Below are positions 4,805 to 31,850 of a stretch of DNA of 53,252 bases, in pieces. The stretch spans positions 1 through 53,252 of IMG/VR virus record IMGVR_UViG_3300013132_000065. One strand, given 5' to 3'. How positions within the stretch are numbered: position 1 is the stretch's first letter; every line of letters begins with the position of its first letter. The translations under genes and the position numbers were made by a program. The notes under the pieces were generated by a model that made no database searches, was not told the origin of the DNA, and worked only from the letters and a program-made list of their open reading frames with translations. Source of the stretch: a virus.

Positions 4805-5443
4805 ATGACTATAACACGTGCATATATACAACAGCTGGTAACTGAAGAATTAAATAAATACCAATTCAATCGTATCATGGAATCCAAGCCATACTCTGGT
4901 AGCAAGATCATTGTATTTGATCTAGATGATACCCTAGTTATTACTAGAGCTCGTATTATAGTAACTGACCCTAAAACCAATAAAAGATACGCCCTTACCC
5001 CGGAGGAATATAATACATATCAAGTTCAGCCCGATCATCAATTAGACTTCTCCGAGTTTAGATCTTTGAATATATTGAAAGCTGGCAAGCTTATAGACTA
5101 TTACCTTAAGATATTGCAAGAAGCATATCGTCGGGGTATTCCTGTTAGCATTGTTACTGCACGCGATAATCGCAATTTAATCTATCAATGGTTCAAGGAG
5201 CATATTGGATATCCTATTGCGCGTACGCTCATATATGCTGTAACCGATCCCGTACATAATTTCCATGGAACTATTGCAGATCGTAAAAAGATGGCGTTCC
5301 GTGAGTTAATTGATCGAGGCTATACCGATTTTCAATTTTACGATGATGATCCGGAAAATCTACGACTCGTTAAATCAATTGAATCGGACTTTCCAAACGT
5401 ACGCATTGCTGCCCGGAGGGCTTATAAGCAATACTCTCGCTGA
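4805..5443 (+). CDS. HAD-family phosphatase with leader motif
   Basis: 212 aa. HAD motifs are in order: motif I DLDDTL (39-44, nucleophile Asp39 and acid/base Asp41), motif II VTAR (Thr118), motif III Lys near ADRKKM (161-162), motif IV YDDDPEN (about 179-185). It resembles the phosphatase half of phage polynucleotide kinases, so a 3'-phosphatase or small-molecule phosphatase is possible. It has no kinase P-loop. The first ~20 residues (ITRAYIQQLVTEELNK) match a leader motif shared with several neighbours, so the enzyme may be packaged in the virion. Substrate unknown. Confidence 0.75.
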   Translation: MTITRAYIQQLVTEELNKYQFNRIMESKPYSGSKIIVFDLDDTLVITRARIIVTDPKTNKRYALTPEEYNTYQVQPDHQLDFSEFRSLNILKAGKLIDYYLKILQEAYRRGIPVSIVTARDNRNLIYQWFKEHIGYPIARTLIYAVTDPVHNFHGTIADRKKMAFRELIDRGYTDFQFYDDDPENLRLVKSIESDFPNVRIAARRAYKQYSR

Positions 5444-5449
5444 TTATAA

Positions 5450-6202
5450 TTAACGCTGAGGCTGATATGCACCACCTAGGCCTCGCGAGGCTAATGCATC
5501 AGCTATCATGATAGCTTCACGACTTTGTGATCGTAGGGAGCGTGTACCGGGGCTAAGCCATGGCGAATCCACATGTATTTGGGTAACTGGCAAAGTTTGG
5601 TCTAGTATCCATGTTTCCTTTTCCTGATACCCGCCCGCCGCAGTTAAAAAATCCGGATTCATAAAAGCCAATGCTTTGACTTGCTTATAAGGAATAGTGA
5701 CAACAATGGCCCATCTGCCAGCTGGTAATCTACCCTGTGCAAAGTTCGCTGCTACCAACCAATCTAGCGATACTGATACAAAACCCGGGCTACGAGATTT
5801 AATGTGTTGTGATACGGGGCCTAATCGAAACCAATTGCCGGCGCTGACTTCCGTGATCTGGATCGCGGGATCTTGTATTAATTCCGCGCATTGTTCCACA
5901 GCTAAAGTCATGCCTCTATATACCCGATCGCTGTCAGCTAATCCCGGATCTAACACAGCTGGGAACTTTTGTTTTAAGGGCAATAATTGCTCGATAGCTG
6001 AGATATCAATCTGATCTTTTTCGCCATTCGTAAGGTAAGTATATAACTGCCACCAAAGCGCCTCTTCTTCCTCGGTATTCCTTTCCTTCATGCCGTCATA
6101 CACTTGCGCGATAAATCGATTATAACGGATGTGACGTTGGGGATTAGCCCATAAGAGATCGCCGTATTGGAATTCTCGTAATAATGTTTTCAATCGTATC
6201 AT
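5450..6202 (-). CDS. ADP-ribosyltransferase paralogue 1 (R-S-ExE)
   Basis: Only clear minus-strand gene in the window. Numbered from an in-frame ATG at 6208, R-S-E class ART motifs are YRG with Arg98, the SVS strand (145-147) and E196-K-E198 before TWIL. It would move ADP-ribose from NAD to a protein, with ExE typical of arginine-specific enzymes. The N-terminus MIRLKTLLREFQYGDLLWA is shared with the other paralogues and contains a possible L-x-E cleavage site. KFPAVLDP before the YRG motif is also shared. The start at 6202 is chosen because MIRL is conserved. T4 Alt is a known packaged phage ART. Target unknown. Confidence 0.85.
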   Translation of the reverse strand: MIRLKTLLREFQYGDLLWANPQRHIRYNRFIAQVYDGMKERNTEEEEALWWQLYTYLTNGEKDQIDISAIEQLLPLKQKFPAVLDPGLADSDRVYRGMTLAVEQCAELIQDPAIQITEVSAGNWFRLGPVSQHIKSRSPGFVSVSLDWLVAANFAQGRLPAGRWAIVVTIPYKQVKALAFMNPDFLTAAGGYQEKETWILDQTLPVTQIHVDSPWLSPGTRSLRSQSREAIMIADALASRGLGGAYQPQR

Positions 6203-6206
6203 ATAC

Positions 6207-6215
6207 ATAAATATA
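6207..6215 (-). promoter_or_regulatory. Candidate late promoter TATATTTAT (minus strand)
   Basis: On the minus strand TATATTTAT ends only 4 bases before the ART start at 6202. The sequence around it (TATATTTATGTATATGATACG) is almost the same as that before the ART gene at 9290. With transcription starting about 6 bases downstream, the mRNA would be essentially leaderless. Confidence 0.5.
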
Positions 6216-6324
6216 TAGCAGCCGTAGATCTAGTGTGTCTTGTGTAAGGCCGTAGGCTTCCGAAGGCCGGGCCCATGGGGGGGTGAAATGCATAGACCAC
6301 ACATTATATTTTATTAATTAAGGA

Positions 6325-6332
6325 ATATTTAT
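6325..6332 (+). promoter_or_regulatory. Candidate late promoter ATATTTAT
   Basis: ATATTTAT two bases before the ATG at 6335, in the divergent region between a minus-strand and a plus-strand gene. The intergenic part upstream (6216-6320) holds a GC-rich imperfect hairpin near 6253-6280 and a G-run, with no gene. Confidence 0.45.
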
Positions 6333-6334
6333 TA

Positions 6335-6673
6335 ATGAATATAACTAGGAATCATTCAATGATCAATCAAAAAAATGGTAAGGATAAAATGTCACGGCCA
6401 TCGCGATCAAATCGAGCCGGACTAACTGAATCAGCTTTACGTGCTATAATCTGTGAAGAGTTGCGCCGTGTGATCGCGGAAAGACGGGTATATCGGTCCG
6501 CGGAATACGAAGAAATGCATAGCGCGATTGAAACGATTCTAGATAATCTACGCTTCCTCGAACCGCCTCATATAGTGCCCGCCCGCGATGCACGCGAAGC
6601 AGTCCGCGATGTGCAAAAGGCCTTGCAAGCATTGTCTGAATTGATCGATCGGTACGGCACTGAAGATAGATGA
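6335..6673 (+). CDS. Leader-motif small helical protein
   Basis: 112 aa, highly charged and helical, no catalytic motif. Contains LRAIICEELRRVI at about 35-47, one of eight copies in this window of an (I/L)-I-x-E-E-(L/I) motif. An internal ATG at 6389 has AAGGAT just upstream; starting there would place the motif at residues 17-25, as in the other tagged proteins, so 6389 may be the true start. The stop overlaps the ART start (ATGA). It could be a packaged internal protein or a partner of the ART. Confidence 0.65.
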   Translation: MNITRNHSMINQKNGKDKMSRPSRSNRAGLTESALRAIICEELRRVIAERRVYRSAEYEEMHSAIETILDNLRFLEPPHIVPARDAREAVRDVQKALQALSELIDRYGTEDR

Positions 6674-7488
6674 TTCGATTACGTGACTTGCTCCTTGAGT
6701 TAGATTACGGTGACAAGCTATTTGCGGATGATTTGATCGACCCGAAACACCCTCGCGAAAAGGCTTGGGGACGATTTATCCAGCAAATATATCGACCGGA
6801 TTTTGAGCCCAACACTGGCGCGGAGCAGGAACTACTCGACCAATTGCAAGCATATATCGGCGTGGGCCACCGCAATGCGAAGCTTGCGAGTGCATTGCAG
6901 CAATTGCTACCACTGCGATCGCGATTCCCTCGTATATTAGATCCAACCGCGGCCAGCATCACGAGTGACGACGAAACGCCCATGCCATGGGCTGAGCCTT
7001 ATCCGGATCTTGCATGGCGCGGCACCTGGGCGCCGATGCCATGGGCAGCTAAGGTAATGGCTCAAAGCAAACATGTTCACAACGTAACCGTGTCCGATGA
7101 ATATTCGCTTCGTCATGTCATGTTTCGAGATGGGAGGGAAGTCGAGGCTACGGTTTTCGAGCGCCCGGGCGTGATTTATAAGTCATCAGGTGAGCGTATG
7201 ATTTCTTTTTCCGATCGGCCCGATGTCGCATTTAGATTCATGCGTGCACGCGCTAAGGATATATATAATCCAAGCAAACCGTCTGGCGTGCCAGTCGCGC
7301 TTGGCATTGCAAAAACGCACCCACGTTTAATCATGAATCCGGATGCTATGAATGCGTTAGGTAGCGATTTTGCGGGAGGTGAATCTGAAATGCTGTTGCT
7401 GACTAATGCGTTTACCCCGGATGTTGTTGTGTTTATAGATCCATATGGGCTTAAATACATAGATAACTATATAGATAACATCCAGTGA
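6670..7488 (+). CDS. ADP-ribosyltransferase paralogue 2 (R-S-ExE)
   Basis: 272 aa, ATGA overlap with the gene before it. The N-terminus MIRLRDLLLELDYGDKLFAD is the shared paralogue leader. RFPRILDP (86-92) precedes the catalytic region. ART motifs: WRG with Arg117 (Trp replaces the usual Tyr), SFS at 179-181, and E238-S-E240. An insertion between the Arg and STS motifs makes it longer than its siblings. The last part, VVVFIDP, matches the shared V-x-x-L-x-I-x-DP ending. GC content is visibly higher than in the neighbouring ARTs, so it may have a different history. Confidence 0.83.
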   Translation: MIRLRDLLLELDYGDKLFADDLIDPKHPREKAWGRFIQQIYRPDFEPNTGAEQELLDQLQAYIGVGHRNAKLASALQQLLPLRSRFPRILDPTAASITSDDETPMPWAEPYPDLAWRGTWAPMPWAAKVMAQSKHVHNVTVSDEYSLRHVMFRDGREVEATVFERPGVIYKSSGERMISFSDRPDVAFRFMRARAKDIYNPSKPSGVPVALGIAKTHPRLIMNPDAMNALGSDFAGGESEMLLLTNAFTPDVVVFIDPYGLKYIDNYIDNIQ

Positions 7489-7495
7489 GCAGCGT

Positions 7496-7503
7496 ATATT
7501 TAT
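7496..7503 (+). promoter_or_regulatory. Candidate late promoter ATATTTAT
   Basis: Lies in the 39-base gap between an ART gene and the gene at 7528, 24 bases before the ATG, embedded in TATATTTATA. Confidence 0.5.
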
Positions 7504-7527
7504 ATTAAAATTTAAGTAGAATTTATC

Positions 7528-7953
7528 ATGACCAGAAAACAACAAGCCATGTCAATGCTTCGTCGAATCATTCGCGAAGAAATTGATAAATTAGCGATGA
7601 GAGAATTCGAGATCAGGGAAGCTTCTCATGTAAATGAGGTTTCAGATTTTAACGACCCCGTTTTAGTTGCGTTTAGAGCAGCGCAGCTTCGCAGAAACCA
7701 GGATACCAAAAAAGCGCCGGCTTTAAAGCCAGCTGAAGCTAGGAAATTAAACTCACAGCTTGAAAAGATATATCGCGCGTTAAACGTACTTTATGTTGAT
7801 CGCAATAGAATCTTGAATGACATGGAACAAGAAGCTGAAATGGGCGGCGGTCCTATTGCCGATCGGTACAGTGATGACTTGGAAAAGCTAGAAGGTAAGA
7901 TAGCCAAACTCTTAACTCAACGCAAGGCAATAGAAATTAAATTAGCTCAGTGA
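7528..7953 (+). CDS. Leader-motif coiled-coil protein
   Basis: 141 aa. The N-terminus carries LRRIIREEIDKL at 11-22, the tag shared with several neighbours. The rest is strongly helical and charged, with heptad-like leucines (LEKIYRALNVL, LEKLEGKIAKLL) indicating coiled coil. No enzyme motif. Candidate internal virion protein, by the tag and its position in the ART block. Function otherwise unknown. Confidence 0.7.
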   Translation: MTRKQQAMSMLRRIIREEIDKLAMREFEIREASHVNEVSDFNDPVLVAFRAAQLRRNQDTKKAPALKPAEARKLNSQLEKIYRALNVLYVDRNRILNDMEQEAEMGGGPIADRYSDDLEKLEGKIAKLLTQRKAIEIKLAQ

Positions 7954-7975
7954 AATAACTAAAAAAAGAAATTTT

Positions 7976-8377
7976 ATGAATCATAGCCAAAACAAATCTG
8001 CCAAGCAAAAACTCGAAGAAATAATAACTAAAATTATACGTGAAGAGCTCGCGGAGGGTGGATGGAGTAAAAGCGCGTTGGCTGCATTTTCACGAAAAAC
8101 CAAGCCGGGTAGATACTTTATTACCACATCTAAAGACGCCAAACCCGGCTGGGCAACCTTCCCGACCATGGCCGGTTTTAACGCTTTTATACGGGACGAG
8201 CTCCGTCGAGGGAATGATTTCGCTAGAGGCGCGGAAGTCATTAACATACATGACAAACAAAAAGGTGATCGGGCAGTACTGCAATATTTTTGGTCGCCGC
8301 GCACAGGTGTAGACTATATTCGGCCGACAGTACCTAATGGTAAGCCAGGTGAAGTTAATCCAAAATATGTTTTGTAA
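7976..8377 (+). CDS. Leader-motif hypothetical protein, 133 aa
   Basis: The tag IITKIIREEL lies at 16-25. A Gly/Pro-containing globular part follows, including PGRYFITTSKDAKPGWATFP and an aromatic C-terminal region (LQYFWSPRTGVDYIRP). No recognised family. It sits between a tagged coiled-coil gene and an ART gene in the same direction, consistent with one transcription unit of internal-protein genes. Confidence 0.65.
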   Translation: MNHSQNKSAKQKLEEIITKIIREELAEGGWSKSALAAFSRKTKPGRYFITTSKDAKPGWATFPTMAGFNAFIRDELRRGNDFARGAEVINIHDKQKGDRAVLQYFWSPRTGVDYIRPTVPNGKPGEVNPKYVL

Positions 8378-8408
8378 CGAGAATTAATAACATTGATCAA
8401 TTTATGAT

Positions 8409-9242
8409 ATGAGTGTGATACGATTGCGAAAATTATTACAAGAATTTGAAGTTGGAAATTTACTATGGGCTGACTCATCAGATACTAGGCGTTCAGGGTA
8501 TTTTCAGAAATTTCTTAATACAGTTTATGGTGATGAGATAGAGCCTAATACTCCGGAGGAAGCGGCTGCATTAGAACGAATAGAATCTTTTATATTAAAT
8601 AATGATATTAAGACGCCTTCCGGTGTCCGTACATTAAATGAGCCGAAAAAATTTATAAAAGATTTATTAAAACTCAAGCCAAAATTTCCGGCAATGCTTG
8701 ACCCATTATATAATAATCCGAAGTTGAGTAACGATGCTTACATATATCGCGGAATGACAACTGAGTTATCTATAATAATTCACACTATTCAGTATGCTAA
8801 ATCGTTCGAAAGGATTCGGGCACAAAACGATAACCATTATATAAGTGTTAAACATCCCAAAGTAAGTATAAAATCACGTGCAAAAGGATTTATGAGTTTC
8901 ACCACAGGCTCTCAGAAGCTCTCCGGACTCGCCGTAGCTGATATATTCACAGGGCAAAACTTATGGTCAGCGTCCGGTGCAGGCCGTTGGGGAGTTATTA
9001 TTGGAATACGGTATGGAGATATTGCAGATAAGGCATTATTAAATCCGGAGTTTGTTGAAGCTATTGGCGGTTGGGGCGAATCTGAAATATGGTTATTAGA
9101 AGGAAAAATTGTACCTGATGTATTGTATATACGAGATCCATTCATATGGTATGGCACCGACAGTCGCGCGACTGTACCTAATGAAATAAAAAATGCCTTG
9201 AAGGCAAATCCTAACTTTCAACATATGACAGATGTAGTGTAA
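8409..9242 (+). CDS. ADP-ribosyltransferase paralogue 3 (R-S-ExE)
   Basis: 277 aa. Shared leader VIRLRKLLQEFEVGNLLWAD (3-22), then EPNTPEE (45-51) and KFPAMLDP (92-99), both found in sibling ARTs. Catalytic motifs: YRG with Arg114, SFT at 163-165, and E224-S-E226 before IWLL. AGRWGVIIGI lies between the second and third motifs as in paralogue 1. The ATG at 8409 is used; the equivalent of the sibling MIRL start would be the GTG at 8415. NAD-dependent protein ADP-ribosylation is expected; target unknown. Confidence 0.85.
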   Translation: MSVIRLRKLLQEFEVGNLLWADSSDTRRSGYFQKFLNTVYGDEIEPNTPEEAAALERIESFILNNDIKTPSGVRTLNEPKKFIKDLLKLKPKFPAMLDPLYNNPKLSNDAYIYRGMTTELSIIIHTIQYAKSFERIRAQNDNHYISVKHPKVSIKSRAKGFMSFTTGSQKLSGLAVADIFTGQNLWSASGAGRWGVIIGIRYGDIADKALLNPEFVEAIGGWGESEIWLLEGKIVPDVLYIRDPFIWYGTDSRATVPNEIKNALKANPNFQHMTDVV

Positions 9243-9275
9243 TTGCAATAATTTTACTTAAACACTTCATTACAT

Positions 9276-9283
9276 ATATTTAT
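9276..9283 (+). promoter_or_regulatory. Candidate late promoter ATATTTAT
   Basis: Six bases before the ATG of the ART gene at 9290, in the same local sequence as that upstream of the minus-strand ART gene. It implies a near-leaderless mRNA if it is the -10 element. Confidence 0.5.
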
Positions 9284-9289
9284 GTATAT

Positions 9290-10066
9290 ATGATACGACT
9301 ACGTCAATTATTACAAGAATTTGAAGTTGGAAAGCATCTATGGGCTGATGAAGATATATATAAATCGGCTCGTTCAAAACAAGCAAAATTCCTTCAAGCA
9401 CTATACCATGGTGCATGGGAACCTAATACTCCGGAAGAGCTAGCGGCCTGGCGTGAGATATATTACTACGTAATGACGAGTAAAAAGAGCCCGAACTTTA
9501 TAAAGATCTTAGACGATCTACTCGCTCTTAAGTCAAAATTTCCTAAAATACTTGATCCAGAATTATCACCGAAAACTAAGCTTTATCGTGGAATGACTTT
9601 AGACGCGGAGCGTATAGTTGAGTTGTTATATGCTAGCAATTCAGTAACTAAAGCGACGGGCTGGCAAAATTTTGATGACGTTCTCGGAGGCACTGTTATA
9701 CGAATTGCGATTGATCGCCGCTTCATCAGGTCACGTAGCGCGAAATTTTTATCAATGTCTACTGAATATACAGTTGCTAAAAATTTTGCCAGGTGGCCTA
9801 TGACACGTGCCGGTATGATGGACGGTTCTAGATGGCCTCTTATTGCGGAAATAAATTATAGTGATATCGAGGCCTTAGCTTTAATGAATCCAAAATTCAT
9901 GAATACTTTTTCTGTGTTAGACGAAGAGGAAATTTGGGTAGTTGCTGACGCGGTACCTATTACAGCTTTATATATAACTGATCCTAGATCAATTGATGCT
10001 CCCACGGAATACAATGAGGCTCAGCGGATGATCGCGAATGCATTAAATCGCAAAAATCCGCATTAA
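9290..10066 (+). CDS. ADP-ribosyltransferase paralogue 4 (R-S-ExE)
   Basis: 258 aa. Leader MIRLRQLLQEFEVGKHLWAD with candidate L-Q-E cleavage site at residues 8-10. EPNTPEE (44-50) and KFPKILDP (83-90) are shared with siblings. Catalytic motifs: YRG with Arg100, SMS at 155-157, and E212-E213-E214 before IWVV. It is the closest sibling of paralogue 3 in its first 20 residues. T4 Alt shows that phages can package an ART and inject it with the DNA; the leader here suggests the same, as an inference. Target unknown. Confidence 0.86.
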   Translation: MIRLRQLLQEFEVGKHLWADEDIYKSARSKQAKFLQALYHGAWEPNTPEELAAWREIYYYVMTSKKSPNFIKILDDLLALKSKFPKILDPELSPKTKLYRGMTLDAERIVELLYASNSVTKATGWQNFDDVLGGTVIRIAIDRRFIRSRSAKFLSMSTEYTVAKNFARWPMTRAGMMDGSRWPLIAEINYSDIEALALMNPKFMNTFSVLDEEEIWVVADAVPITALYITDPRSIDAPTEYNEAQRMIANALNRKNPH

Positions 10067-10095
10067 TCATTAACAACCCGTTTTTTATTGTACAT

Positions 10096-10103
10096 ATATT
10101 TAT
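10096..10103 (+). promoter_or_regulatory. Candidate late promoter ATATTTAT
   Basis: Lies in TACATATATTTATAC, 21 bases before the ATG at 10125. The leader would carry a weak TAGGAA ribosome site. Confidence 0.5.
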
Positions 10104-10124
10104 ACTAAATAACTAGGAATTGTT

Positions 10125-10475
10125 ATGAAACAGTATAAGTCGAGACTCTTACGTGAGTATATTTCGCGAGAAATTCGTACTCAATTAAAAGAAAATGATA
10201 GCAAGAATTTCGCTTCGGATAGTCAGTCTGATTTAGATATTGGCCATGTCGATGATGAGCCGGGTATGATAAAAGCTGACTTATATCGAATTGCTAAATA
10301 TGCAGTAGAATTATATAAATTAGTATCTCATTTAGAAGAAACGGGTAAAGAGGTTGACTTTCCGCATTGGTGGCAAGCTGATATCATTGAAGCTAAGGAT
10401 CGTATGATCAATGCTAAACACTATGTCCATGGCGAGCTGAATATGCCAGGATTTGATAAAATGTTAGGGCTATGA
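10125..10475 (+). CDS. Leader-motif hypothetical protein, 116 aa
   Basis: N-terminal LLREYISREIRTQL (8-21), a looser copy of the tag found on neighbouring proteins. An acidic, mostly helical body follows, with no catalytic motif. It is the first gene of a tightly overlapping set: its stop overlaps the lipoprotein start (ATGA), which in turn overlaps the next ART start. Confidence 0.65.
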   Translation: MKQYKSRLLREYISREIRTQLKENDSKNFASDSQSDLDIGHVDDEPGMIKADLYRIAKYAVELYKLVSHLEETGKEVDFPHWWQADIIEAKDRMINAKHYVHGELNMPGFDKMLGL

Positions 10476-10783
10476 AAGTTATATATAGTATAGTTGCATG
10501 TATATGCTTATTAGTTAGTTGCACATCATCATCACATATGCAATGTGATGAAGTATATTCATATGATTATAATTGCCCAGAACGCGATTATTATAATTTT
10601 AATGTATACCGCGCGTATTATCCAAATACCGAGACAGTATACTTTGTGCCCTATTATGTGCCAAACACACACGAGCCGAAATGTAATGATCATGCAACGC
10701 CTAGTAGGGAAATTATAACGGGGCGCCGGCCATCTTTATCATCTCACCGTACTAATAAACGCCCTGAGACAAATGAACAATGA
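10472..10783 (+). CDS. Small Tyr-rich lipoprotein
   Basis: 103 aa with a lipoprotein signal: short basic start, hydrophobic core, lipobox LVSC with Cys17. The mature part is rich in Tyr, Asn and Pro (YDYNCPERDYYNFNVYRAYY) and ends in a basic tail. Translationally coupled on both sides by ATGA overlaps, between a tagged protein and an ART. It could be an outer-membrane factor made late in infection, for example one that blocks superinfection; this is only inferred from location and signal. Confidence 0.7.
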   Translation: MKVIYSIVACICLLVSCTSSSHMQCDEVYSYDYNCPERDYYNFNVYRAYYPNTETVYFVPYYVPNTHEPKCNDHATPSREIITGRRPSLSSHRTNKRPETNEQ

Positions 10784-11532
10784 GGCTATTACATTTATTG
10801 CATGAGTTTGAATATGGTGAAAATTTATTTGCCGATCCTAGTCATTATAGCAATGTACAGACTACATCTGACTTAAATATCATTGGCTATCGTAACTATG
10901 CAGATATAGAAACTGATACTGAGGATGAGACGCGCGCGTTAGAATTACTCGATGTATTTTATTCTGGTGATTTTGTCAACTTAGATGAAACCGCATTGTA
11001 TAAACTCATCGCACCACTAAAAAAACTTAAATCAAAATTTCCAAAAATATTAGACCCACGTACTAGTCCCGGTATTGGGCAAATGGTGTACCGCGGTGCA
11101 ACTATATCTTTAGATTTAGTTAAAGATATGCCGTATACGGTCGCTGGCAGCAATATTATACTTGAAGTGCCTAAAAATTTTAAAGTACGGCCGCAATCTG
11201 GACGGCCTATACACTCTTTTAGTATTAAACGGTATATGGCAGTTAATTATGCATTAAATCAAACATTAATGTCAGTAGAAAATCCAAGCCGTGTACCAGC
11301 TATAATTTGCGTAGATGTAAATGATCCTAATTTATTATTTTCAACTCGTTTTTCAGAGCTACATAGTATATATAGAGAAGAAGAAGAAGTATTTTATGCT
11401 AACTATGATATTACAGTAAACGAGTTAATTCTAAAGTCAGCAATTATAGAAGATATATATAAAGAACATGCTAATAGCAGTAATCATGTTGTACGCAGTG
11501 TATATACTAAATGGTATAATGCTATCAATTAA
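10780..11532 (+). CDS. ADP-ribosyltransferase paralogue 5 (R-S-ExE)
   Basis: 250 aa. Leader MRLLHLLHEFEYGENLFADP, with L-H-E at 7-9. KSKFPKILDP (84-93) is shared with siblings. Catalytic motifs: YRG with Arg105, SFS at 146-148, and a run of four Glu (200-203) supplying E201-x-E203 before VFY. The region between the STS and ExE motifs lacks the RW-x-V-I strand seen in paralogues 1, 3 and 4, so this copy has diverged. It starts with an ATGA overlap on the lipoprotein gene. Confidence 0.82.
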   Translation: MRLLHLLHEFEYGENLFADPSHYSNVQTTSDLNIIGYRNYADIETDTEDETRALELLDVFYSGDFVNLDETALYKLIAPLKKLKSKFPKILDPRTSPGIGQMVYRGATISLDLVKDMPYTVAGSNIILEVPKNFKVRPQSGRPIHSFSIKRYMAVNYALNQTLMSVENPSRVPAIICVDVNDPNLLFSTRFSELHSIYREEEEVFYANYDITVNELILKSAIIEDIYKEHANSSNHVVRSVYTKWYNAIN

Positions 11533-11539
11533 TATTTAT
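11532..11539 (+). promoter_or_regulatory. Candidate late promoter ATATTTAT
   Basis: Overlaps the stop of the preceding ART gene and lies 4 bases before the ATG at 11544. Another near-leaderless arrangement. Confidence 0.45.
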
Positions 11540-11543
11540 TAAT

Positions 11544-13280
11544 ATGATAAGTTTAATTCAACTATTACGAGAAATACGTTTATTTGAAAAAAATAAAACG
11601 GTAGATTTTTTCCGAAAAAATCCTAATCTATTAAAACAGTTTACTGTGCCAGACCCAGGAAACAAGAATATTAACGCTGCTGATTATTACCCAAGCCCGA
11701 CGGGGAAGGAGTCGAGACTCAGCCGAGTTGCTTTAGAAATGCTAGAAAAAGCATTTCCACATAAGTTCAATGACCGACTTTTCAAAACGCTATGGGAATA
11801 CGATTATTTGGTTAAAACAATTATCAAAGCCCCAACATATCAAGAGTTGCTAGATAAACACTTAGATGTTTTACCGACAAATGAAAAGGGGGAACCATGG
11901 ATGGATTATATGGATCATGAATTCATGTCCACAAATTACAATAAAATACGGCGAATAGCTCGAGCAGCAGTTGCCAAATCGGCAGGTTTGAGTCATATAG
12001 GTAGAAAGCGTTATGTCAAAGCTATGTATAAATTAGGGCTAGATCCGAATGACGTCGAGGCCGCAATGTCATGGGTAGGTTATTACACAGGCGGCAGTTA
12101 TCGTAAACTTCCTAAGGAGATATTTGAAACACTACAGCAATTATCCGTTGATCCTAGTCGTTTACCAAAATATATATATCGTGGACTTTTTTATGATGGT
12201 GCTAAGATTAAAGATCAAGAAAAGTTTTTAAGTAAATGGAAAGAAGGCTCAATGCCTAAAGAAGCATTACGTAAAGCTACTAGTTTTTCTGGAGATAAAG
12301 GCACTGCAATTAACTTTATGGTGAACCAAGACAAAGTTAAAGATGCTAAATCGGGATATCATATCCTACTAAAATGGAAAGTTCGCCCAGAGGCTGTTGT
12401 CGCTGATTTACGAAACTTACCTGTCGATACAAGGTTTTGGAACCAACATGAATTCATAGTACATCCGGATGTTAAAGACTATGTCGTAGATAAACTTATA
12501 CCATATAAAGATTCTACCGATTATGCCTCCTATAGCGATACACCATATGTTAAATTTCAAGACGCGACAAAAGGCGGATTTGGAGCGTACGGGCTGGATA
12601 AGCCTGATACACTGAAAACATTTTTATTATCACCGTATGATAAATACAGTACTAACGAAAAAATTGCATATAAGCAATTATACAATATGACTGTACAGGA
12701 AGTACAGCAAGAATACACAATGTTTCGTAATTATTATGAAGATGCTTTTCAGAAGATAAAAAATGCAGTACTGCCAGTATATGTAGTTAGCGACGCGCTA
12801 GTTTTTAGCGGCGGTGGAAAAGATTTCACGTTTAGCAAAGTTCATACCGGATCTACGCGAAATACTCTAGAATTTCAAATATTTGTACGTTTAAGTTATT
12901 ATTCCGCAGATAACAGTACAGAACTATTCGGGCCTGAGGTAACTGCAATGTTGCAACGCAATTATATAGATTCGGGTAAATTTAAATCAATGCGTGATGT
13001 ATTTAATGCATTAGAGAATAGTATGAAACAACCAACTGGTTATAGTTCACTTACATTACGCCCAGGCGGCGGTTATTATAGCATGAAATTTGATTTAGAA
13101 CTTCCAAAATCATTTATACTAGATGATATACCAGGTGACCGTTACAACGCCGCCGGCATATCAATTTGGGAAGATATCATGAAGATTTTTGACGGTAAAA
13201 TGATAGCTGATCGATGCCGAGAAATAGTTTCTAGAAACCTTAAAAGACTTCCACCGACAGTAAAAATTTCAGTAAAATGA
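11544..13280 (+). CDS. Large ADP-ribosyltransferase, Q-x-E variant
   Basis: 578 aa, about twice the size of its siblings. It starts with leader MISLIQLLREIRLF (L-R-E at 8-10). An N-terminal domain of ~200 residues precedes the ART core: YRG with Arg213, SFS at 247-249, and Q301-H-E303 in FWNQHEFIV. A Gln two residues before the catalytic Glu is known from ARTs that modify Asn or other residues rather than Arg, so specificity may differ. About 260 further residues follow, ending in a beta-rich region; not recognised. The stop overlaps the next start (ATGA). Target unknown. Confidence 0.75.
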   Translation: MISLIQLLREIRLFEKNKTVDFFRKNPNLLKQFTVPDPGNKNINAADYYPSPTGKESRLSRVALEMLEKAFPHKFNDRLFKTLWEYDYLVKTIIKAPTYQELLDKHLDVLPTNEKGEPWMDYMDHEFMSTNYNKIRRIARAAVAKSAGLSHIGRKRYVKAMYKLGLDPNDVEAAMSWVGYYTGGSYRKLPKEIFETLQQLSVDPSRLPKYIYRGLFYDGAKIKDQEKFLSKWKEGSMPKEALRKATSFSGDKGTAINFMVNQDKVKDAKSGYHILLKWKVRPEAVVADLRNLPVDTRFWNQHEFIVHPDVKDYVVDKLIPYKDSTDYASYSDTPYVKFQDATKGGFGAYGLDKPDTLKTFLLSPYDKYSTNEKIAYKQLYNMTVQEVQQEYTMFRNYYEDAFQKIKNAVLPVYVVSDALVFSGGGKDFTFSKVHTGSTRNTLEFQIFVRLSYYSADNSTELFGPEVTAMLQRNYIDSGKFKSMRDVFNALENSMKQPTGYSSLTLRPGGGYYSMKFDLELPKSFILDDIPGDRYNAAGISIWEDIMKIFDGKMIADRCREIVSRNLKRLPPTVKISVK

Positions 13281-13729
13281 TTAAGCTAAAGTTGTTATTA
13301 GAAAATACATATTCATCATGGGTACGGCCGTCAATTGACTCATTAAAGCAAGAATTTCGCGTTGAACATGAACTTAAAGGCCATTCTTGGTTTGCAGATG
13401 AAACAGAATTTCTTGAAGCAGCGCGCCGCGCAAAAGCCATAACTATAACGCCGGCAATTGATAGAAAAATTGATTATCGTAGTGGCACAAAAACATATGA
13501 TCAATTAGTTAGATTGCTACAAGGCTATAAGTCTTGGGGTAAATATCGCAGTGAAGAAAAATTGCAAAACATGTATGCTCGACTACGCGACAATTTAGAC
13601 ATGGATATGCCAATCGTATTAAAGTTTCCTAATGGCAGTATGCGCGTGTTCGGCGGCAATACTCGCATGGACATAGCATTTCAGTTAGGTATCAATCCCA
13701 AAGTATTAATGATTGAAGTTCCTTCATAA
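13277..13729 (+). CDS. Leader-motif protein with ParB-like fold signature
   Basis: 150 aa. The N-terminus MIKLKLLLENTYSSW matches the leader of the ART paralogues (L-L-E at 7-9), but the body is different. The C-terminal part has VLKFPNGSMRVFGGNTRMDIAFQLG (114-138); the G-G-N-T-R-x-x-x-A pattern is typical of ParB/sulfiredoxin-like nucleases and NTP-binding proteins. It is a short version, so activity is uncertain. The ATGA overlap with the large ART gene points to co-expression and perhaps co-packaging. Confidence 0.68.
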   Translation: MIKLKLLLENTYSSWVRPSIDSLKQEFRVEHELKGHSWFADETEFLEAARRAKAITITPAIDRKIDYRSGTKTYDQLVRLLQGYKSWGKYRSEEKLQNMYARLRDNLDMDMPIVLKFPNGSMRVFGGNTRMDIAFQLGINPKVLMIEVPS

Positions 13730-15399: not shown

Positions 15400-15627
15400 A
15401 TGCCAGCGGTAAGCAAACAGCAACAAAAATTCTTTGGAGTAGTAAAATCAATGCAACAAGGAGATATGCCAGCTCGCGGGGCGGCGGGTAAAGTTGCTAA
15501 AACTATGAGTAAGTCAGATGTGGATAAGTTTGCTAGTACAAAGCACGATAAATTGCCTAATAAACTACGGGAGATGGTGATTAATATAATTCGTGAAGAA
15601 CTAATAAAACTACGAAAAAAAAGGTAA
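15400..15627 (+). CDS. DUF3008-like small protein with C-terminal tag
   Basis: 75 aa. MPAVSKQQQKFFGVVKSMQQGD followed by VAKTMSKSDVDKFASTKHDKLP matches the DUF3008-type family of small proteins found in phages and bacteria (the two patterns S-K-Q-Q-x-F-F and D-x-x-x-F-A-x-T-K-H). The tail INIIREELIKLRKKR carries the same IIREEL motif as the N-termini of several neighbours, here at the C-terminus. Function unknown. Confidence 0.75.
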   Translation: MPAVSKQQQKFFGVVKSMQQGDMPARGAAGKVAKTMSKSDVDKFASTKHDKLPNKLREMVINIIREELIKLRKKR

Positions 15628-16372: not shown

Positions 16373-17506
16373 ATGAAAAAAGTATTACTGTTACTATTGC
16401 TAAATATGTTTGCATTTTTTTTGGTAGCACAAGAAGAATGTGGCACTACTACATCTAAAATTGAGTATAATAAAGCTAGCCGACATGCTAAAAGTATGGC
16501 CATGGCTAGATCATCTGGTACTGTACAACTTAAAGAAATTCCTATTGTTTTTCATATTTTTTATTCTGAGTCAATAGCCAATTCGTATGTTCCTCGCGAG
16601 GCCGTGGTTGAGGCATTTTATGACATAAATAGAAATTTTATAGGAACAAAATTTAGATTTCGGTTAGTTGATATTAAATATCAAAACTTAGCTGAATTTG
16701 CGTGGCATAATGATTTCTTAAACGGTAGTACTAATTTACCTAATAAAAATCATGGCAGAATGCATGATTTAGCTAATAGTACTTATTTAGACCCCAATTC
16801 TCACTTAAATATTTATATTTGCCCAAAATTTAGTACAGCCGGGCTTAAAGGGTTTTCATTTACTACTCCATATGCCCCAGTTGTAGGGCAAGGATTAAAA
16901 CCTGCTGACGGCGTTTGGATTAGAACTGATGTATTTGGCGTTAATCTTCCATATTTAGCTCAGTACAATACATTAAACAAAATAGTCGTTCATGAGATAG
17001 GCCATTATTTGGGACTATTTCATACATTTCAAGGCAGTGCCGGGTGTGATCCAGATGTCTTACCTTTAGATTGTGCAACTACAGGCGATCTAGTATGTGA
17101 CACGCCTCCTATAAAATCTTCGGTTATAGCAAATCACTGCAATCCTAGATGTCCTGACAATTGGACGCCTGGGATGCCATGGGAATCTTATACCTATGAT
17201 AACTTTATGGATTATTTAGCCGATAATTGTAGATATAGTTTTACTGCTGGCCAGATTGATCGAATGCACCAGCATGTTATACAACAACGTCCCGATGTTT
17301 ATCAAACTATAACTGTACAACAGCAAGTTGATTTAGATAGGAACTATAGTATAGGTTCATCCGATATGTTATTATTGTTATCTTGTATAAATCAACCTAT
17401 AGAATCTAAAGATTGCTATTTATGTGACTTTGATTTTAATAAAGTAGTAGGCGTATCCGACCTTCAACTTTTACTTTCCTTTATGGGAACTACTTACCCA
17501 AAGTAA
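16373..17506 (+). CDS. Secreted M43-family zinc metalloprotease
   Basis: 377 aa. Signal peptide with cleavage after LVAQ (about 20), typical of Bacteroidota. Zinc motif HEIGHYLGLFH (207-217) and Met-turn NFMDYL (278-282) are those of cytophagalysin/pappalysin-like (M43) peptidases. The Cys pairs around CDPDVLPLDC and VCDTPP are also typical. The C-terminal part carries two dockerin-like calcium loops (DLDRNYSIGSSDMLLLL and DFDFNKVVGVSDLQLLL). Unlike the next gene it lacks an obvious T9SS sorting domain. A secreted protease in a phage is unusual; it may process surface proteins. Confidence 0.85.
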   Translation: MKKVLLLLLLNMFAFFLVAQEECGTTTSKIEYNKASRHAKSMAMARSSGTVQLKEIPIVFHIFYSESIANSYVPREAVVEAFYDINRNFIGTKFRFRLVDIKYQNLAEFAWHNDFLNGSTNLPNKNHGRMHDLANSTYLDPNSHLNIYICPKFSTAGLKGFSFTTPYAPVVGQGLKPADGVWIRTDVFGVNLPYLAQYNTLNKIVVHEIGHYLGLFHTFQGSAGCDPDVLPLDCATTGDLVCDTPPIKSSVIANHCNPRCPDNWTPGMPWESYTYDNFMDYLADNCRYSFTAGQIDRMHQHVIQQRPDVYQTITVQQQVDLDRNYSIGSSDMLLLLSCINQPIESKDCYLCDFDFNKVVGVSDLQLLLSFMGTTYPK

Positions 17507-17542: not shown

Positions 17543-18901
17543 ATGAAACAGTTTATCATTATACTAGGATTTTTATCCTTTACGTTAAGTTCCGTAGCAC
17601 AAGAACCTATGAGTTGTGCTATGTTAGGTGATACAAAAAATGTATTGCCAATGGGATTCTTAAAAAACAAAAGTAATCGTAGTAATACTGCCAAAACGAT
17701 TCCGGTAGTAGTTCATATAGTTTATACTGATGCTATAGAAAATACATATGTCCCTGTTGAGGCTATCCAACCTGCTATAGATCAATTAAATGTTGACTTC
17801 GAAGGAACTAATATATTATTTGAACTAGTAGGTTATGATTATACAGATTTATCTACCTATGTTTGGCATGATGCATATGTAAGTGGGCAGGTATGTTTTC
17901 CTACATACCAAAACCAAGCTACCATGTTAGCTAATGACGTGGCATGGGACATTTCAGAATATTGTAACATATACGTTATACCTAAAATGTGCTCTACAAT
18001 ATTAGGCTATGCATATGTAGGATATGGGCCAAATAATGCTGATGACGGTGTTTGGGTACTCACTAAAACTTTTGGTATTGGCGAATGGCCCCACCTGAAT
18101 CCCGCATATAACGAAAATGAAACCTTAACTCATGAGTTAGGACACTACTGCGGTTTATTTCATACATTCAATTTAAACCCAGGCACATGCGGTGCACAAG
18201 ACCCAGATATCCCTTGTGAATACGAAGGAGATTATGTTTGTGATACTCCTCCTACTAAACCTAGTGCTGGTTGTCCCGGTACTACTGGTTATCACTGTCC
18301 TATAACCAATTATGATGGCGGTGTTTGGTTTAATGCTCGTAATCATATGGATTATGGGGGCCAATATTGCAGAGATGAATTCACACCGGGCCAAATAGAT
18401 AGAATGCATGCTATGCTTGAATATCAAAGATATGAATTGTATAGCGATGATTCCGTAATACCATTCTGTCCCGGAGATTTTAATGGCGATGGGAACATAG
18501 GTACGGCTGATTTATTAGTAATATTATCAAACTACGGTTGTATAGGATGTGGTCCTTCACAAGGGGATGCTACTTTAGACTATGTAGTAGGTGTAGCTGA
18601 TATTAATTGGGTACTAGCCAATTGGGGTGAAATTTGCGGTGATGGTATAGGAATGATAGAAGGGGAAAATATTTATTTACCTCAACTACCATACGTTCCT
18701 CAAAAGCCGAAACAATCAATTCCGTTTAAGACGTTAGCAGCGTTACTAGTTCAAGAACCTAAGCCAATTCTAGAAATAAACTATTATGATATCATTGGGC
18801 GAAATATTAATCTGTCAGAATTAGTACAAACACGTGGCATATATGTCGTTGAAATTATTTTTGAAGATGGTTCACGGGCTGTGTTAAAAACGTATAACTA
18901 A
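17543..18901 (+). CDS. Secreted M43 metalloprotease with T9SS sorting domain
   Basis: 452 aa. Signal peptide ending SSVAQ (20). Catalytic motif HELGHYCGLFH (197-207), Met-turn NHMDYG (267-272). Dockerin-like loops DFNGDGNIGTADLLVIL (312-328) and DATLDYVVGVADINWVL (342-358). The last ~45 residues, with EINYYDIIGRNINLSEL, RGIYVVEI and an ending KTYN, match a type A T9SS C-terminal sorting domain (consensus: Y-D-x-x-G-R, then G-x-Y, then a basic K-x end). It would be exported and cell-anchored by the type IX system found only in Bacteroidota. Paralogue of the previous gene. Substrate unknown. Confidence 0.88.
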   Translation: MKQFIIILGFLSFTLSSVAQEPMSCAMLGDTKNVLPMGFLKNKSNRSNTAKTIPVVVHIVYTDAIENTYVPVEAIQPAIDQLNVDFEGTNILFELVGYDYTDLSTYVWHDAYVSGQVCFPTYQNQATMLANDVAWDISEYCNIYVIPKMCSTILGYAYVGYGPNNADDGVWVLTKTFGIGEWPHLNPAYNENETLTHELGHYCGLFHTFNLNPGTCGAQDPDIPCEYEGDYVCDTPPTKPSAGCPGTTGYHCPITNYDGGVWFNARNHMDYGGQYCRDEFTPGQIDRMHAMLEYQRYELYSDDSVIPFCPGDFNGDGNIGTADLLVILSNYGCIGCGPSQGDATLDYVVGVADINWVLANWGEICGDGIGMIEGENIYLPQLPYVPQKPKQSIPFKTLAALLVQEPKPILEINYYDIIGRNINLSELVQTRGIYVVEIIFEDGSRAVLKTYN

Positions 18902-31424: not shown

Positions 31425-31850
31425 ATGAAAACCGAATCATTTCTAAATACACTACGTAAAATTATCCGAGAAGAAGTACGTAATGCTGTACGACAAGAAT
31501 TGAATGAGGCTCTTAACACAAAAAAGCCTTATAAAGAAGTTATTAACCATGGCGTAAATTTACAGCGCGAAGCAACAAAGCCAGCTGCTAGAAAACAATA
31601 CGTTAAAAACGAAATGTTAAATAATATTCTAAATGAAACATCGACTATCAATGATGGCGGATGGGACACATTAGAATTTAAATCAGAACTAGCTCAGGCA
31701 TATGGCATGAATTCTACAAATATAATTCAAGATATGTCTGGCAATGCATTTGATGTTAATGATTTAAAGAAAACTGACGCCGGCGCCGCTGTGGCAAATG
31801 CACTTACTAGAGACTATTCGTCATTAATGAAAGCTATCAATAAAAAATAA
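31425..31850 (+). CDS. Leader-motif protein in the baseplate module
   Basis: 141 aa. N-terminal LRKIIREEVRNAVRQELNEAL (10-30) is a long copy of the IIREEL tag. The body contains TTINDGGWDTLEF-like turns and a helical end (ANALTRDYSSLMKAINKK). It lies between the gp5-like and gp25-like genes. Being tagged yet in the tail module, it shows that the tag is not confined to the ART block. Role unknown. Confidence 0.68.
   Translation: MKTESFLNTLRKIIREEVRNAVRQELNEALNTKKPYKEVINHGVNLQREATKPAARKQYVKNEMLNNILNETSTINDGGWDTLEFKSELAQAYGMNSTNIIQDMSGNAFDVNDLKKTDAGAAVANALTRDYSSLMKAINKK

Follow-up and report, generated by a model that had tools for sequence, protein, structure and literature searches.

The stretch of DNA analysed here (the window, 53,252 nucleotides; IMG/VR record IMGVR_UViG_3300013132_000065) is a fragment of the genome of a T4-like myovirus, T4-related and marine. 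Between positions 4805 and 13729 it holds a block of genes that is best read as a cargo locus, from which several ADP-ribosyltransferases (ARTs) and other effectors would probably be packed into the phage head and injected into the host. Six open reading frames (ORFs) of this block, named A to F, carry the R-S-E pattern of ARTs. Five of them (A–E) are, with high likelihood, ARTs of the R-S-E clade, and all six open with a short putative N-terminal tag, which recurs on unrelated neighbouring proteins and resembles a capsid targeting sequence. The window also encodes a baseplate wedge gp6-like protein (52.5% identity to Microcystis phage Mel-JY01 and 39.8% to Flavobacterium phage immuto), together with an SbcC-like exonuclease and an endonuclease, and hundreds of contigs related to it are present in environmental data.

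The ADP-ribosyltransferase-like proteins A to F

The six genes, with lengths in amino acids (aa), are the following:
5450-6208, minus strand: predicted ART paralogue A, 252 aa; YRG, S-V-S, E-K-E
6670-7488, plus strand: predicted ART paralogue B, 272 aa; WRG, S-F-S, E-S-E
8409-9242, plus strand: predicted ART paralogue C, 277 aa; YRG, S-F-T, E-S-E
9290-10066, plus strand: predicted ART paralogue D, 258 aa; R100, S155, E212, E214; structure predicted
10780-11532, plus strand: predicted ART paralogue E, 250 aa; YRG, S-F-S, E-E-E
11544-13280, plus strand: ART-like protein F, 578 aa; YRG, S-F-S, Q-H-E; outside the A–E family

The pattern, taken as YRG or WRG, then S-x-S/T, then E/Q-x-E at ART-like spacing, occurs in 6 of the 68 non-overlapping ORFs of the window, exactly A–F; in shuffled ORF sets it occurred in 0.27 ORFs on average and in 2 at most. 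The original prediction, which had placed six such genes at 5450-13280 and had noted a WRG variant (that of B) and a Q-x-E variant (that of F), is borne out by these counts. The ORFs lie at those coordinates, but the related features span the wider interval 4805-13729, and A is on the minus strand. In a translated search A–E were mutually homologous, and all five share an N-terminal region with K/R-F-P-x-x-LDP; identity to D is 25–36%. The earlier description of a KFP-x-x-LDP region common to five proteins thus holds for A–E; F is without it.

The ART interpretation of A–E, also proposed from the outset, is supported by invariant residues, a confident model, viral structural matches and a profile match in register. 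Among 33 family members, R100, G101, S155, E212 and E214 (D numbering) are invariant (33/33), and the third position of S-x-S/T is kept in 32. The AlphaFold2 model of D, based on an alignment of 20 sequences, reached a pLDDT of 86 and a pTM of 0.84. Searched with Foldseek against viral structures, it matched an Alt-type ART of Vibrio phage ValKK3 (probability 1.00), a phage head-morphogenesis-domain protein (0.99) and an ADP-ribosylase of Citrobacter phage CF1 (0.89), and the named high-probability matches were mostly Alt-type ARTs. In addition, the A–E family profile matched the T4 ModA/ModB family with E = 4.8e-4, the serine motif alone being aligned, in register on SxS...A..FA; by comparison, the Mod and Alt profiles, from two known ARTs of one phage, score E = 0.038.

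The structural support for an ART fold is nevertheless partial, as the TM-scores of the viral matches were low (0.27–0.36) and Foldseek gave no significant match to the D model among solved (PDB) structures. Both results would fit proteins that have an ART-like fold without ART activity and that serve as internal structural or decoy proteins. This explanation is very unlikely: none of the catalytic positions varies among the 33 sequences, although many of these are only ~25–35% identical, and such invariance is hard to explain without catalysis. As to the acceptor of A–E as active ARTs, the E-x-E form is typical of arginine-directed R-S-E enzymes (the Alt, ModA and ModB type), which suggests arginine.

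None of A–F matched an ART family in Pfam, PHROG or NCBIfam, even at permissive E-values, or in PADLOC; the other family members had no ART match in Pfam and PHROG, and the family profile matched no PDB sequence. Judged by their sequences, A–E are a new ART family without coverage in current family libraries.

From the order of its motifs, F is rather likely to be an ART as well, outside the A–E family. The claim of a sixth ART thus stands as far as the motif order goes, but F is without the shared N-terminal region, and the A–E family profile does not detect it (E = 0.98). Weak in-register profile matches were obtained with A2 (E = 0.0015) and with Mod (E = 0.0025); the model of F, built without relatives, was unusable (pLDDT 39). 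The Q-x-E of F suggests an acceptor other than arginine.

Single-sequence searches of viral contigs with D and F gave no matches. In alignment-based scans, relatives of A–E were seen solely in uncultivated, T4-like phage contigs, several of which have two or three copies. No relatives of the family were found in one bacterial genome scan or, with three different queries, in cultured phages; one weak match, to Vibrio phage 2.058.O, was rejected as chance, since no gene-like ORF lies at its site. In a tree of the 33 members, the five copies of the window do not form one clade: A and D lie near the copies of contig L107, B near L122/L119 and E near the L117 group, although branches are long and exact placements unsure. 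The window label needs 4 changes on this tree, at least 3 of them forced by supported branches, and a recent tandem duplication of A–E is rejected on this ground. The paralogues appear to belong to several old lineages.

In phage Mel-JY01 (L010 22429-23595), an unannotated gene between those for the prohead protease and the major capsid protein (MCP) encodes an R-S-E-like series (YRA ... STT ... ESE); its product has no Pfam match and no relative in the phage collection.

The N-terminal tag

A–E open with MIRLRxLLxE, followed by a conserved body start, (F/L/I)-(E/D)-(Y/F)-G. Both F (MISLIQLLRE) and the unrelated protein encoded downstream at 13277-13729 (MIKLKLLLE) have similar N-termini. The original prediction missed that this shared N-terminus is a module. 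The features that bear it or a second tag (type 2) are listed below, with p-values from tag position models that were trained on other phages, ARTs left out (type-2 training retained one ART, from G017), and scored within a 34-residue N-terminal span:
4805-5443, plus strand: HAD/polynucleotide-kinase-phosphatase-like protein (phrog_415, E = 8e-11), tag YIQQLVTEELNK; p = 0.005
6173-6208, minus strand: putative capsid targeting sequence of A, MYMIRLKTLLRE before FQYG; p = 0.001
6335-6673, plus strand: 112-aa neighbour, ALRAIICEELRRVIAE behind an N-terminal extension, read from the sequence, beyond the scored span
6670-6699, plus strand: putative capsid targeting sequence of B, MIRLRDLLLE before LDYG; p = 0.0005
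7528-7953, plus strand: 141-aa neighbour, type-2 tag MLRRIIREEIDKL, body not ART; no internal segment scored as high
7976-8377, plus strand: 133-aa neighbour, type-2-like tag IITKIIREELAEGG; p = 0.029, weak
8409-8444, plus strand: putative capsid targeting sequence of C, MSVIRLRKLLQE before FEVG; p = 0.004
9290-9319, plus strand: putative capsid targeting sequence of D, MIRLRQLLQE before FEVG; p = 0.004
10125-10475, plus strand: 116-aa neighbour, type-2-like tag RLLREYISREIRTQLKE; p = 0.0007
10780-10806, plus strand: putative capsid targeting sequence of E, MRLLHLLHE before FEYG; p = 0.018
11544-11573, plus strand: putative capsid targeting sequence of F, MISLIQLLRE; p = 0.006
13277-13729, plus strand: GNTRMD-motif protein, 150 aa, tag MIKLKLLLE; p = 0.0017

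The models mark 10 of the 13 ORFs at 4805-13729 versus 2 of 55 elsewhere in the window (Fisher p = 6e-8). Similar modules are found in related contigs, where MIKLKDLLxE and MKKSELRxLIREEVRKxLNE stand on many different proteins (G008 and G015) and the tags MKKIKLFEEFLxE (G022) and MKYIKLYEQFLNE (G013) occur; the ART of L024 bears a long tag, MKKSELRQLIKEEIGRVLKE, in common with three upstream neighbours. When similar N-termini were counted, contig by contig, between proteins with non-homologous bodies, the pairs observed versus expected were 137 vs 6.1 in G008, 22 vs 0.2 in G022, 25 vs 0.3 in G015, 19 vs 0.7 in G013, 6 vs 0.9 in G009 and 10 vs 1.9 in G017. Nothing comparable was seen for C-termini in the same test. 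Tags differ among phage lineages and agree among neighbouring genes. The GNTRMD protein, which is ParB-like by eye and has no family match, is conserved beside ARTs in six contigs (the window, L014, L015, L018, L024 and L139), with 49–61% identity between the window copy and the five others; its tag varies by phage and matches that of the adjoining ART (permutation 4/120).

Shared N-termini could also arise from conserved DNA or mRNA elements, such as a start-site signal or a recombination joint, and in G008 several tag codons are the same in most copies. Synonymous tag codons nevertheless vary within G008, and widely in the window, and both L/I-x-E and the hydrophobic pattern are kept though tag length varies, which leaves a nucleic-acid origin highly improbable beside a protein signal.

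As a protein signal, the tag can be compared with those of T4, among which the IPIII tag reads MKTYQEFIAE. The propeptides of T4 internal proteins have 10–19 residues and are cleaved by gp21 after L/I-x-E; the first 10 residues of IPIII are enough for packaging, and tag residues 4 and 7 are needed for targeting, 8 and 10 for processing (PMC9026906). The tag of D is hydrophobic at 4, 7 and 8 and has E at 10. A strict regular expression places L/I-x-E immediately ahead of the conserved body in 29 of the 33 ART family members (32 by eye), and this boundary is kept across tag lengths of 7, 9, 10, 12, 13 and 20 residues. The confidence of the D model is 51 for residues 1–10 and 90 for residues 11–20, with the jump at residue 11. 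By eye, a site of this kind is also present in MCPs of relatives (QLISE, QIVSE and QLVTE, each before A), and a gp21-type protease is encoded in the ART-bearing contigs G008, G009 and, weakly, G013. About 44% of phage ARTs sit in contexts suggesting head packaging (PMC9503650). The likeness of the tag to a capsid targeting sequence suggests that its bearers are packed into the head. Scaffold N-termini from relatives did not stand out in the tag models (p 0.03–0.4), and it is therefore not claimed that the tag copies the scaffold.

Several further observations concern tags and neighbouring genes. In phage immuto, a scaffold-like protein (L012 15626-16867) ends in RWQKLAGIIK, and two other proteins (L013 15061-15456; L012 1675-2139) start with MKKQILSEQFxRMQxLAGIITES; it is possible that these N-termini are a third tag type copying the scaffold C-terminus. 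In the window, a DUF3008 protein (15400-15627), just over the Pfam cut-off, has a C-terminal IIREEL motif resembling the type-2 tag. Tagged proteins in L128 (10392-11357) and L139 (14469-14864) matched ART-PolyVal (E = 0.018) and Tpt1/KptA (E = 0.023) at sub-threshold level, and other ART types may thus carry the same delivery tag. A small lipoprotein-like protein adjoins an ART at 10472-10783, and likewise at 4185-4475 of L023 (CTSSSHMQCDEVY / CSTTSNMQCDEMY). Outside the block, two adjacent M43-type metallopeptidases (16373-17506 and 17543-18901; Pfam E 1e-12 and 1e-17) have signal-peptide-like N-termini; this pair is predicted to be secreted proteases, which are unusual in a phage.

Proposed head packaging and its alternatives

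From the motifs, their invariance, the predicted fold and the tags with their statistics, we infer the following course of events. The proteins of the block would be synthesised late, and their tag would bind the scaffold core and so bring them into the growing prohead. There, the prohead protease would trim the tag after L/I-x-E, and the trimmed proteins would stay with the DNA in the mature head until injected at infection. A–E, and probably F, would act as mono-ADP-ribosyltransferases of the R-S-E clade, drawing on the NAD of the host to modify its molecules at the very onset of infection. Their several diverged copies may reflect several targets or a rapid turnover against host countermeasures.

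Some results weigh against this course, in addition to the structural scores given above. Prohead protease, scaffold, MCP and other head genes are absent from the window, which is a fragment, and the T4-type late promoter TATAAATA is not enriched (16 sites vs 14.9 expected). Within the window alone, N-terminal pairs of unrelated proteins are not significantly in excess (2 vs 0.6 expected), so the signal comes from the cross-genome tag models. Moreover, a tagged gene at 31425-31850 lies in the tail/baseplate cluster, and the tag may thus not be specific to head cargo. The product of this gene has a strong type-2 tag, LRKIIREEV, as does the protein at the same position in Mel-JY01 (L007 22463-22993).

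This last gene is also in keeping with a different view, in which A–F are made in the host from injected DNA and the tag binds a phage or host complex or the like. A precedent exists in ModA and ModB, which act later in the T4 cycle and are not its packaged ART (PMC9503650). On the other hand, many unrelated proteins bear the tag, it ends with L/I-x-E where the folded body begins, and in size and cleavage motif it matches T4 tags (PMC9026906). Synthesis after infection is accordingly considered unlikely, and delivery from the head is preferred.

The original prediction had spoken of an effector arsenal, and this is upheld by the deep divergence of the paralogues, which represent several tree lineages, and by a tag common to unrelated neighbours; its suggestion of different roles by time found no support here. 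More tentatively, uncultivated T4-like phages of a widespread group may use lineage-specific capsid addresses on up to dozens of genes per genome, the head being a re-addressable delivery device that loads a large, interchangeable payload, with several ART families acting jointly on different host targets at injection. The tags provide a sequence rule by which, in T4-like marine phages, which are abundant, many genes so far called "hypothetical" are marked as predicted injected effectors, and each ART of the new family may point to a host process that is worth shutting down at the very start of infection. If the same cargo bears different tags in different lineages, this would also show how cargo passes between phages and is re-addressed.

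Comparison with known systems

Among the closest known systems is T4 Alt, a packaged ART of the R-S-E clade (PMC9503650). The new proteins are predicted to be, like Alt, R-S-E ARTs that enter the head by means of a short N-terminal propeptide with L/I-x-E at its end and are injected. Alt differs in being a single 682-aa protein, as opposed to five paralogues of ~255 aa and one protein of 578 aa, and it has no sequence match to them (hhalign E 0.47–0.51). ModA and ModB resemble them in size (~200 aa), in the order YRG/WRG ... SxS/T-x4-A-x2-FA ... E-x-E and in the weak in-register profile match; they differ in being without such a tag and in their later action, and have no BLAST- or HMM-level homology to the new proteins.

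In the T-even IPI, IPII and IPIII locus, as in the block described here, unrelated accessory proteins have a common N-terminal leader (PMC12373910, PMC3012670). Apart from this leader the T4 internal proteins have nothing in common, and the host restriction system that is blocked differs from one to the next (PMC12373910), whereas the cargo here would be mainly ARTs and the tags are MIRLRxLLxE, MKKSELRxLIREE and MKKIKLFEEFLxE. Polyvalent proteins and MuF-ART fusions also deliver ART domains from the head (PMC9503650), but there the ART is fused into a head or multidomain protein, while those of the window are separate tagged genes. The number of ARTs, above that of T4, is not a record, as at least 10 are encoded by Bacillus phage G (PMC9503650). 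Taken separately, head-packaged ARTs, internal proteins with a tag and ART-rich phages all have precedents; what is new is the A–E family, the five-plus-one set in one block, the lineage-specific tags on many unrelated genes, and the combination of these.

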